Program-made: the position numbers and the translations under genes
Source: Terriglobia bacterium
GTDB taxonomy: Bacteria > Acidobacteriota > Terriglobia > JAIQFV01
Length of the DNA stretch: 64,000 nucleotides
Assembly: GCA_020073085.1 (NCBI GenBank)
Contig: JAIQFV010000001.1
Location: forward strand, 310,001-374,000
Direction: 5' to 3'
The notes under the pieces: generated by a model
Databases searched by the model: none
The model's input: the letters and a program-made list of their open reading frames with translations, nothing else
Told to the model about the DNA's origin: nothing
Shown: in pieces, positions 23,339 to 26,491 of the stretch
How positions within the stretch are numbered: the first letter of the stretch is position 1
How the letters are laid out: every line of letters begins with the position of its first letter

Positions 23339-23606
23339 GTCTTCGCTCGGCGCGAATTCAACCCGAGCTGTGCTTCCGGCATGGCCACCCCTGTGAATCC
23401 GGCCTGGCGGTTGGGTTCGAAATGAATGGGAGCACAACTTCAGAAATGAAACCAAATGGCCTCCTGGATGAAGTTCCTTCGTACCACAAAGTACGTAATC
23501 CGTCAAAACTGGTTTCGTTTTTCGGCGCGGGGACGATCTGGGAAGGCTTGAAACAGGATTAACAAGATTAACAAGATTAGTAACAATCGCGGGCCGCTCA
23601 CGTGGG

Positions 23607-23723
23607 GCAGGCGTCCTCGCCTGCCTCCTTGTAGCAAGGTGCTACACACTGTTAGGCAGGCGTCCCCGCCCGCCTCATTATGACCGAGTGCTACACATGT
23701 GTGGCAGGCGAGGACGCCTGCCC
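23607..23723. repeat. Three GGCAGGCG-type palindromes
   Basis: Hairpin-forming units lie at 23607-23626 (GGCAGGCG-TCCT-CGCCTGCC), 23656-23675 (a degenerate copy) and 23704-23723 (GGCAGGCG-AGGA-CGCCTGCC). They are linked by repeated TGCTACACA stretches. This is the appearance of REP or small MITE-like extragenic palindromes. They could also act as weak terminators for neighbouring transcripts. Confidence 0.75.
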
Positions 23724-23805
23724 CACAGCAAAGATCGGTCTCCTCAATGTACTTGACGCATGTGTGAATTACAGTGGGAATGTCGTTGCGGGGCACCTAC
23801 AAGGT

Positions 23806-24005
23806 GTGAGGAGATTGGTGAATACCCAGCTAATTCAGGTTGCTTCGTGAGTCGATCCCTACAGCACCCCGATTCATCGGGGTGGCAAAACCCCACCCAG
23901 ATCGAATCGCAGCCGTTTCAACGGCTTCATGAAAAGAAACCGATGAATCGGTTCAATGGCGAGGTGGGAATGATCTTAACACCCCGATAAATCGGGGTGC
24001 TTTTA
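23806..24005 (+). repeat. 200-nt structured repeat, copy 1
   Basis: This copy aligns without gaps to 25067-25266 (constant offset 1261) with most positions identical. It contains four hairpins: CACCCCGA-TTCA-TCGGGGTG, AGCCGT-TTCA-ACGGCT, ACCGAT-GA-ATCGGT and CACCCCGA-TAAA-TCGGGGTG, the last followed by CTTTT as in an intrinsic terminator. The 12-mer CCGATTCATCGG in hairpin 1 is the exact reverse complement of CCGATGAATCGG in hairpin 3. Confidence 0.85.
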
Positions 24006-24039
24006 GAAAAAATTCGTCGCGTTCTTTGCAGGAACAACG

Positions 24040-24231
24040 TCAGGATTTTGGGGGTCGCAGCTTTCTCCTTAGCAACCAACGCCAGTAAAGCACGTTCACG
24101 ACGAGACCGATCGACGCGAGTAGTAACTGCACCAGAATGCTATGACTGAGGGACGCCAATCCAAACCACCCCGCAATCAACCCGGTGGTTATAAAACCAT
24201 ATTTCAGCAACTCGACGCTATCTTTTCTCAT
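24040..24231 (-). CDS. Small hypothetical membrane protein
   Basis: From the ATG at 24231 the frame gives 63 residues with two hydrophobic stretches (about 11-27 and 30-48) and a strongly basic end (RRKLRPPKS), consistent with a small inner-membrane protein with the positive end in the cytoplasm. There is no strong ribosome binding site and the gene sits in a repeat-rich area, so it could be spurious or a remnant. I do not recognise a family. Confidence 0.35.
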   Translation of the reverse strand: MRKDSVELLKYGFITTGLIAGWFGLASLSHSILVQLLLASIGLVVNVLYWRWLLRRKLRPPKS

Positions 24232-24404
24232 TCGAGTCCCACGCAAACTTTGATACCAAAGCCCACAGACAAACTGCACCGTGCGAGTGATGTCCGCTCA
24301 ATGAAGGATCGGGTGGATCGGGGGTCAGACTGGGACATTGGACAATTCCGAAGCGGCCTGATCTATCAGCAATGTCGGTGCCTGGCACCAACGATTCCAA
24401 ACTT

Positions 24405-24731
24405 TCATCTTGTTTGCTTTCTCGCATCGGTCTTCCCTCTCCGGTAGTAGACGATCAACAGAATCAAACCTGATGCAAATACTACCGCCCCAGCCAGGAA
24501 AGCAGCTGTCGTCCACGAATAGGCAATCCAAGCGGTAAGCGCGGCTAGACCAATGAACCATGTTGCGCAAGCCCAGTCTTTTTTCTTAAAAAACGCAGCG
24601 TCAAAGAATCCGGACGCAAAGATTCCCGCCAGAATTACCACTCGCACGGCTGTGCCGTGATGCTCAAGAAGTGAATTCCAATCCAATCCGAGCCCTAATC
24701 GCGCGATCATGGCACATTCCTGCTTGTCCAT
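24405..24731 (-). CDS. Hypothetical membrane protein
   Basis: A 108-residue frame with three hydrophobic segments (about 30-43, 54-70 and 74-95) and a basic C-terminal tail (YYRRGKTDARKQTR). The amino-acid pattern looks like a real small membrane protein and the frame is not antisense to another gene. No family was recognised, no clear ribosome binding site was seen, and it is flanked by repeats and transposase debris. Confidence 0.4.
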   Translation of the reverse strand: MDKQECAMIARLGLGLDWNSLLEHHGTAVRVVILAGIFASGFFDAAFFKKKDWACATWFIGLAALTAWIAYSWTTAAFLAGAVVFASGLILLIVYYRRGKTDARKQTR

Positions 24732-24815
24732 CTTGAAGAATTCGGGTCAGGCACCGACAATCATTCTGAATAGATGTCGGTTCATATGGGTCCATGGTGA
24801 CTTTCAAATTTCCAT

Positions 24816-24893
24816 TCACGCACCGACATTCTCCTCGCGGGAAGGGACGTGATACCAATGTCCTTCCCCCTGAACGCGCCACGGCCTCGCCAT
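24816..24893 (-). pseudogene. Remnant of a REP-associated tyrosine transposase (RAYT, Y1_Tnp)
   Basis: The ATG at 24893 starts MARPWRVQGEGHWYHV, which matches the highly typical RAYT/IS200-like opening MARP-(L/W)-R-(I/V)-x3-G-x-x-YHV. After 25 codons the frame ends at a stop, so the HUH and Tyr catalytic residues are absent. It lies between the two 200-nt palindromic repeats. RAYT enzymes are known to mobilise REP palindromes, so it may be the relic of the enzyme that spread them; that link is inference. Confidence 0.7.
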
Positions 24894-25065
24894 ATAGACT
24901 TGAATGCAGGGGAAGGTTGGACCACTCGAACCGCTTACTTCACGAACCACATCCCCATTATAGCCGCTTTGCCCAGGAAGCGAGATGAAGAAATCATCTC
25001 GAGAACCATCCCCCGCTCCGGTGCAACCCTCAATTTTCGAATGTCGGTGCCTGACACCAACGAGT

Positions 25066-25265
25066 AGTGACGAGATTGGTGAGCACCCCCTTAAATCAGG
25101 TTGCTTCGAGAGTGGATCCCTACAGCACCCCGATTCATCGGGGTGGCAATGCGCCACCAAAATCGAATCACAGCCGTTTCAACGGCTTCATGAATAGGAA
25201 CCGATGAATCGGTTCAAGGGCGAGGTGGAAATACGCTTAACACCCCGATAAATCGGGGTGCTTTT
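25066..25265 (+). repeat. 200-nt structured repeat, copy 2
   Basis: Second copy of the repeat at 23806-24005, in the same orientation and without gaps. All four hairpins are kept, and the 12-nt self-complementary pair is unchanged. The substitutions I see lie mainly outside the hairpin stems. The copy ends in a terminator-like hairpin plus CTTTT at 25242-25265, upstream of ychF. A TGTCGGTGCCTGACACC fragment (25042-25058) precedes it. Confidence 0.85.
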
Positions 25266-25396
25266 GGAATCTCAAGTCAAACAGGGCTTGGCAGGAATGT
25301 TGAAATGGAGAATCGGGCAGCAGCCTGATTCATCAGCGCTTCGAATTGTGCTAAGATGCTTCCGCTTTTCCAGCCCTGATCCTACGGAGTCCTAAG

Positions 25397-26491
25397 TTGA
25401 AAACCGGCATTATTGGCTTTTCCCAGGTGGGCAAGACCACTTTGTTCAAGATCCTCACGCACGCCCGGGTCGAGACGTCCAAGTTTTCCGGGGGCCGCGC
25501 GGAAGCGCATCTAGGAATCGCGACGGTCGCGGACTCACGCCTCGAGAAACTGTCCCAGAAATACCAGCCCAAGCGAACCATTTTCGCGACCGTGGAATAT
25601 GTGGACGTCGCCGGGATTGTGAAGGGGGACCAGAAAAAGGAAAAAGAGGCCGCGTTCCTGGTGGACCTGCGCAATGTCGAAGCCCTGCTGCACGTGGTTC
25701 GTGGCTTCGACGACCCCGGTGTCTCCTTCTCTGAGGGTTCGATCGATCCGAAGCGCGATATCGAGAATCTGGAACTGGAACTGGTGCTGGCCGACCTCGG
25801 GATCGTGGAAAAGCGATGCGAGCGCCTGGAAAAAGATCTGAAGAAACTCAAGAATCCGGAGCTGGAACGCGAACAGGACATCCTGCGGCGCTGCAAGACG
25901 ACCCTCGAAGCCGGGACGCCGCTGCGCCATCTTGACTTCCCCGCGGAAGAGAAGAGACGCCTGCGCGGCTTCATGTTTCTTTCCGCCAAACCCATCCTGC
26001 ATTGCATCAACCTGGGCGACAACGACAGCGGCGTGATCGATGCGGCGCCCTCCCGGTTTGGCCTGGAGACGATCGCCCACCAGCCCAACACGGCGGTCAC
26101 GGCGGTCTGTGGAAAGATCGAATCGGAGTTAATTGAGCTCTCCCCTGAGGATCAACAGGTTTTTCTGGCGGATTTCGGCCTGAAAGAGTCGGGGCTGGAA
26201 CGCATCATTCACGCCACCTACCAGCTTTTGGATTTGATTTCCTTTTTCACCGTGGGTGAGGACGAGTGTCGTGCCTGGACGATCCCGCGCAACTCGACCG
26301 CCCTGGAAGCGGCCGGCGTCATCCACTCCGACATCCAGAAGAATTTCATCCGGGCCGAGGTCGTCAGCTATGAGGATCTCATGGCGTGCGGCAGCCTTCC
26401 CGCAGCGCGGGAGAAGGGGCTCTTAAGACTCGAAGGGAAAGAGCACGTCGTCCTCGACGGCGACATCGTCCATTTTCGCCACAGCGGTTGA
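25397..26491 (+). CDS. ychF: YchF-family (Obg-related) P-loop ATPase/GTPase
   Basis: A 364-residue protein starting at a TTG, with GGAG placed 7 nt upstream and the P-loop GFSQVGKTTLF beginning at residue 7, which fixes this start. It shows the switch region VEYVDVAGIVKGDQ, a coiled-coil insertion (about 120-170) and a C-terminal TGS-like domain (from about 275, DLISFFTVGEDECRAWTIP). YchF proteins bind ATP in preference to GTP and associate with ribosomes; the base-specificity motif here reads CINLGDND, not NVNE-like, so the protein is somewhat divergent. Confidence 0.9.
   Translation: MKTGIIGFSQVGKTTLFKILTHARVETSKFSGGRAEAHLGIATVADSRLEKLSQKYQPKRTIFATVEYVDVAGIVKGDQKKEKEAAFLVDLRNVEALLHVVRGFDDPGVSFSEGSIDPKRDIENLELELVLADLGIVEKRCERLEKDLKKLKNPELEREQDILRRCKTTLEAGTPLRHLDFPAEEKRRLRGFMFLSAKPILHCINLGDNDSGVIDAAPSRFGLETIAHQPNTAVTAVCGKIESELIELSPEDQQVFLADFGLKESGLERIIHATYQLLDLISFFTVGEDECRAWTIPRNSTALEAAGVIHSDIQKNFIRAEVVSYEDLMACGSLPAAREKGLLRLEGKEHVVLDGDIVHFRHSG

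Follow-up and report, generated by a model that had tools for sequence, protein, structure and literature searches.

Four-hairpin repeats in a Terriglobia genome are probably gene-less relatives of a Y1 transposase element

In insertion sequences of the IS200/IS605 family, IS608 included, the left and right hairpins have the same orientation on one strand. It is not settled how insertion sequences gave rise to REP sequences. A 2018 survey divided the Y1 proteins into classes; there subclass 1.2 is described as having a low copy number, as occurring mostly in Cyanobacteria and Bacteroidetes and as “generally” having no terminal IS200 structures, its entry in the table shows no REP, and it is left without a substrate (PMC6006769). 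Class 3 of the same survey contains acidobacterial Y1 genes with several atypical hairpins beside them, which in Solibacter have about 600 dispersed copies (PMC6006769). TIRtrons carry a Y1 gene (TIRYT) between inverted repeats, some of them self-complementary and some repeated in the genome; they are reported from Acidobacteria (Koribacter), with GGGGWSAS as the usual motif (PMC3733652), and TIRYTs have been assigned mostly to subclass 2.1 and otherwise to 2.2 and 2.5 (PMC6006769). For REPs, the GTAG foot is described as taking part in the choice of the cut site (PMC8266576).

The repeats described here lie in the window, by which we mean the whole stretch of 64,000 nucleotides that was analysed. 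The initial annotation had proposed two gapless copies of a 200-nt repeat in which four hairpins are kept. Both points are borne out: 177/200 positions match within that span, the repeat extends to 231 nt with 87% identity (31 differences, gapless), and each copy has the four hairpins, at the same offsets. The features are as follows.

23778..24008, + strand: copy 1, long (231-nt) form of the element, from sequence comparison
23778..23862, + strand: left extension of copy 1, outside the H1-H4 core, with a decayed H1-like palindrome
23863..23884, + strand: H1, left outer hairpin of copy 1, AGCACCCCGAT-TC-ATCGGGGTG, outside foot CTACAG
23909..23928, + strand: H2, left inner hairpin of copy 1, AGCCGTT-TC-AACGGCT
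23929..23936, + strand: H2-H3 spacer of copy 1, the position taken by the transposase gene in the element on contig C30
23937..23954, + strand: H3, right inner hairpin of copy 1, AAACCGAT-GA-ATCGGTT, also AACCGAT-GA-ATCGGTT
23979..24001, + strand: H4, right outer hairpin of copy 1, ACACCCCGAT-AA-ATCGGGGTGCT, also CACCCCGAT-AA-ATCGGGGTG, inverted relative to H1
25039..25269, + strand: copy 2, long form of the element, from sequence comparison
25124..25145, + strand: H1 of copy 2
25170..25189, + strand: H2 of copy 2
25198..25215, + strand: H3 of copy 2
25240..25262, + strand: H4 of copy 2, about 135 nt 5′ of the start (25397) of a YchF-type GTPase ORF

The outer hairpins H1/H4 and the inner hairpins H2/H3 are nested inverted pairs of imperfect palindromes. 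The two copies differ at only 2/83 hairpin positions as against 11/56 spacer positions (Fisher p = 0.00085), so the hairpins are largely spared, and the left extension of copy 1 recurs in copy 2 and, in part, in a third full-length copy on a different contig (C10:185125-185322). The spacing of the window copies, 1261 nt in the same orientation, is what a chance local duplication of 231 nt would give, one that carried palindromes along without any mobility. We regard this as extremely unlikely in view of the third full-length copy on another contig, the shorter kin at many places and the sparing of the hairpins; for the family as a whole it is refuted, but one window copy could still have arisen by direct duplication of the other.

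When the window repeat was used as a DNA query against the Acidobacteriota genome it comes from (5.79 Mb, 68 contigs), 60 matches were obtained, and a 20-nt terminal palindrome, CACCCSGATNNATCSGGGTG, occurs at 54 sites, compared with none for a control pattern; the repeat is thus not confined to a pair. In its directed form the terminal pattern was found in 2/81 genomes, at 50 sites in the genome of the window and at seven in a genome of the same genus. The window together with 20 fetched stretches holds 17 complete H1-H2-H3-H4 units, all in this order, with H1-H2 spacers of 22-25 nt and H3-H4 spacers of 22-27 nt; the H2-H3 spacer varies from 8 to 75 nt and reaches 447 nt in one unit. In the stretches viewed, three of the 54 sites with the terminal pattern (C2:198317, C28:27507 and C7:43361) have no inner hairpins, and they probably do not belong to the family. 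Sequence to the left of H1 is common to the three long copies, and what moves or is duplicated is therefore not in every case H1-H4. The units L057, L060 and L063, which form one subfamily, also seem alike beyond H4, a hint of a larger duplicated or co-mobilised stretch.

The unit with the 447-nt spacer explains what these repeats most probably are. It lies on contig C30 (L050:2939-3517), where the same four hairpins keep their order and surround an ORF of 150 aa (L050:3020-3472) that sits exactly between H2 and H3. The product of this ORF, C30 TnpA (G000:C30:37019-37468), scores 85 bits on Pfam Y1_Tnp (cut-off 23) and 67.9 on NCBIfam transpos_IS200 (cut-off 55), and a profile of its family matches the solved structures of IS608 and other Y1 transposases. 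By these matches, C30 TnpA is an HUH/Y1 transposase of IS200/IS605 type. It carries the motifs EHVH and YINNQDEHH; the HUH motif reads EHVH in C30 TnpA versus DHVH or DHIH in the other aligned relatives, and W95, Q96, Y115, Q119, H122 and H123 are invariant in an alignment of ten proteins. H3 encodes the last residues of the protein, ETDESV. Several gene-less units and additional H1-like palindromes in tandem surround the gene, of which the genome holds one close copy, and no tnpB was seen beside it.

The ends of this gene-bearing unit are common to the gene-less units of the same genome, as expected of MITEs. Because the C30 unit has tnpA between the same hairpins, the window copies are most likely non-autonomous derivatives. 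We are confident, judging from sequence comparison, that they are REPIN/MITE-like units of a Y1 transposase element of the IS200/IS605 superfamily that lack tnpA. The suggestion of a MITE-like mobile unit, one of two readings offered in the initial annotation, is thereby well supported, both by the many copies and by the seemingly autonomous version whose transposase lies between H2 and H3. We also considered other Y1 genes as partner: the genome has 19 Y1_Tnp matches, and among the seven whose flanks were viewed (two of them at contig ends, with a single flank), only that at C30:37034 carries the stems of the window family.

A mechanism of the following kind would account for the family. The ancestor would have been an H1-H2-tnpA-H3-H4 element, represented by the one copy on C30, and the gene-less units would have arisen from it through loss of tnpA between H2 and H3. 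Where the DNA becomes single-stranded, for example at a replication fork, the hairpins could fold, and the C30 HUH/Y1 transposase may bind them in a strand-specific manner. A short YAG foot outside the outer hairpin may serve as a guide for TnpA, which would cut and then move the H1-H4 unit in trans, possibly to the present day. YAG is found at 12/17 left and 10/17 right feet of the complete units, the remainder having another base before AG.

The arms of the units were compared for compensatory change, and selection on structure, the second reading in the initial annotation, is supported in part, for the left arm: among 24 left arms, H1 shows a compensatory C-G to G-C change in six and H2 an A-U to G-C change in four. 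The left arms contain 10 double-change cells, compared with a shuffled mean of 2.1, a figure that ignores kinship and reflects few independent events. The left-arm alignment misplaces H2 in a few rows, and H2 pairing is therefore slightly undercounted. The right arms (H3/H4) show no compensatory change.

It had also been proposed that the RNA could switch between local hairpins and a long-range helix, with H1 pairing with H3 or opening it, and that a terminator-like H4 would thereby come under alternative control. The window copies lend themselves to such a reading: H1 CCGATTCATCGG and H3 CCGATGAATCGG are, as had been noted, exact reverse complements in both; the repeats fold strongly as RNA on both strands (z -7.4 to -9.2 relative to shuffles); and four T directly follow H4. 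Across the 17 units, however, the H1/H3 complement is exact in only six, and in four the H1 stem has changed to CGGAT..ATCCG, a compensatory change that keeps H1 and breaks the pairing with H3. In the minimum-energy RNA structures predicted for the window copies, H1 pairs with H4, not H3. The four-T run behind the last hairpin is present in only 4/17 units, the window copies among them, and is thus not a conserved feature. Both ORFs next to copy 2, the minus-strand one at 24405-24731 and that for the YchF-type GTPase at 25397, have it on their upstream side, and a terminator there would be without clear use. At the gathering threshold, no Rfam family besides a tRNA was found in the window, and the same hairpins form the borders of a transposase gene. 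A chance origin of the H1/H3 complement was considered and dropped: the exact complement arises because H1 and H3, as parts of nested inverted pairs, share a stem core in opposite orientation. A structured RNA switch with its terminator-like end is thus highly unlikely, and we do not accept it as the main explanation, given the comparison of copies, the H1-H4 folds and the scarcity of T-runs. The window repeats most likely are selfish mobile DNA, although units transcribed by chance may act at the RNA level.

Like REPINs and BIMEs, the family consists of inverted palindrome pairs in many dispersed copies (54 palindromes, 17 units), and the units cluster around a Y1 gene. An ordinary REP/BIME family of a RAYT (class 2 TnpA-REP), with nothing special about it, would have these properties, and the YAG foot recalls the GTAG foot reported for REPs (PMC8266576). 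The partner protein makes this unlikely: C30 TnpA reaches 29 bits on REP_Tyr_transpos (cut-off 80), yet passes transpos_IS200, and its Y motif is Y---Q--HH instead of the Y..NP of class 2. Moreover, there are four nested hairpins of two kinds instead of two of one kind, and the feet of the 17 units vary and are mostly not GTAG, REPINs and BIMEs being expected to have GTAG (or GTGG). The units nevertheless resemble the REP/BIME/REPIN systems with RAYTs and REPtrons in their inverted pairs, clusters at a Y1 gene, dispersal and short 5′ foot (PMC6006769; PMC8266576); they differ in transposase subclass, in a YAG foot where REPs have a strict GTAG, in their two nested kinds of hairpin and in having the gene inside a unit that also exists without it. 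Given the part that GTAG is described as playing in cut-site choice (PMC8266576), the YAG foot is suggestive.

Comparison with the other systems places the transposase more closely. The C30 element shares with IS200/IS605 (subclass 1.1; IS608, ISDra2) an HUH/Y1 protein that scores over the curated cut-off, a short core protein, hairpins near the ends and kinship to IS608. In contrast to these elements, it has two hairpins per side instead of one and no tnpB seen beside the gene, and its ends are inverted copies: H1/H4 and H2/H3 lie in opposite, not in the same, orientation. TIRtrons also have a Y1 gene between inverted repeats and also occur in Acidobacteria, but their subclass differs (PMC3733652; PMC6006769), and GGGGWSAS was not seen in the aligned arms of the four-hairpin units. 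TnpA-Y1 class 3 is alike in its acidobacterial Y1 gene, several hairpins and dispersed copies, and differs in its Y motif (Y----Q), its foot (CnGA) and a longer protein (PMC6006769). With subclass 1.2 as described there, C30 TnpA has in common Y---Q--HH, W-Q, a length of about 150 aa and a low copy number (PMC6006769). It bears the subclass 1.2 signature and, judged by signature, length and W-Q motif, appears to belong to that subclass.

Homologs of C30 TnpA with 30-45% identity occur in 22/80 related genomes at E <= 1e-20 (23/81 including its own). We fetched 110 loci, comprising 30 of the 49 matches in related genomes and the best 80 of 578 candidate stretches across bacterial species. Six of the 110 (L088, L097, L120, L125, L140 and L173), in which no single frame holds HUH plus the Y---Q--H/R pattern, and 12 of the remaining 104, which do not have full flanks, were left out; 92 loci were analysed, with at least one counted twice, as L071 and L128 appear to be one place. 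The closest relative of C30 TnpA among the best 80 of 578 is 62% identical and comes from a genome labelled Bacteroidetes (L108). Its H2, H3 and H4 have the same letters as on C30, and the H3-encoded ETDESV is again near the C-terminus, which suggests that transposase and hairpins travel together.

At 40/92 of these Y---Q--H/R tnpA loci, a shared stem of at least 7 bp flanks the gene on both sides, compared with 0-4 of 89-92 for mixed flanks and 0-2 of 55-84 at shifted places of the same loci. Two hairpins of at least 6 bp per side were found at 33/92 loci, versus 0-2 of 55-84 at shifted places. The remaining 52/92, many of them from Bacteroidetes, have no shared stem at the 7-bp threshold. 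The feet could be compared at 33 of the 40 shared-stem loci (hairpins within 130 nt, readable feet): YAG stands directly outside the outer hairpin at 22/33 on the left and, reverse complemented, at 24/33 on the right, compared with 1/33 and 2/33, respectively, on the inner side of the hairpins. Among the loci with YAG feet on both sides are ones from Terriglobia/Terriglobus, Verrucomicrobia, Bacteroidetes (Salinimicrobium), Calditrichaceae, Zixibacteria and Planctomycetota. In the genomes that contain L111 (Verrucomicrobia) and L108 (Bacteroidetes), the terminal pattern was found at only three places each, on a single contig, indicating that large expansion is not general.

Genes of this kind have paired terminal hairpins in several phyla (40/92 loci), and one has dozens of gene-less relatives, in contrast to the description of subclass 1.2 in the survey (PMC6006769). 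We consider it rather more probable than otherwise that subclass 1.2 constitutes a class of single-strand mobile element of its own, present in at least six phyla, with YAG-footed inverted palindromes, often in a nested four-hairpin arrangement, with one hairpin sequence per TnpA and with gene-less derivatives able to spread. No paper in the open-licence literature searched links a subclass 1.2 TnpA to paired terminal hairpins or to four-hairpin repeats. As far as we have seen, the kind of mobile element is known, and the nested four-hairpin architecture and its tie to a subclass thought to have no substrate are new. If true, this would bridge insertion sequences and REP systems, with an IS-like transposase and REPIN-like ends. 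If the pairing of transposase and hairpins holds, it would offer small transposases with defined DNA substrates, whose binding, cutting and movement could be tested directly, and a transposase could be named for many of the unexplained palindromic repeats between genes in Acidobacteriota, Verrucomicrobiota and other groups. Good folding alone is no ground for annotating such repeats as RNA switches or terminators.

Comparison with a sister species of the same genus suggests that the units are mobile. A unit there (L102) matches L057, L060 and L063 from H1 to 8-12 nt past H4, with unmatched flanks. The sister species is without window positions 23790-25323, which contain both copies and two small ORFs, and has about 170 nt there instead; it is also without the element at the place of L052. 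Copies have therefore been gained or lost since the divergence of the two species, and the absences may be due to loss in the sister species. No clean empty site, readable junction or target-site rule was found at either place of absence, where the intergenic DNA is too diverged. Units are common to three orthologous places (L058/L100, L065/L101 and L053/L103), and flank identity of about 84-87% indicates that some insertions are old. The best match to C30 TnpA in the sister species has 45% identity in one part of the protein and 40% across most of its length, and no close partner gene was thus found there.

The genome of the window encodes other Y---Q--HH transposases: L107 and L033 (G000:C25:32839), L034 (G000:C1:593209) and L050:6258-6722. 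Those on C25 and C1 are flanked by hairpin families of their own, different from the one described here. At L050:8219-9430, a Y1 transposase of 203 aa (61.8 bits on REP_Tyr_transpos, below the cut-off of 80) lies amid repeated GGGACAGACACC / GGTGTCAGTCCC palindromes, which form a further REP-like family.

The two small ORFs between the window copies (24040-24279, and 24405-24731 on the minus strand) are missing in the sister species along with the copies. A cargo role was considered for them; the second, of 108 aa, has just two weak partial matches in 40 relatives, which give no explanation. Other palindromic repeats lie close by. One, GGCAGGCGAGGACGCCTGCCCCAC, occurs in both orientations at 23602-23728, and a repeat of the same kind stands at the orthologous position in the sister species (C70). 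A second, GAATGTCGGTGCCTGACACC, also in both orientations, is found at 24371-24394, 24741-24762 and 25040-25063, one copy being at the left edge of copy 2.
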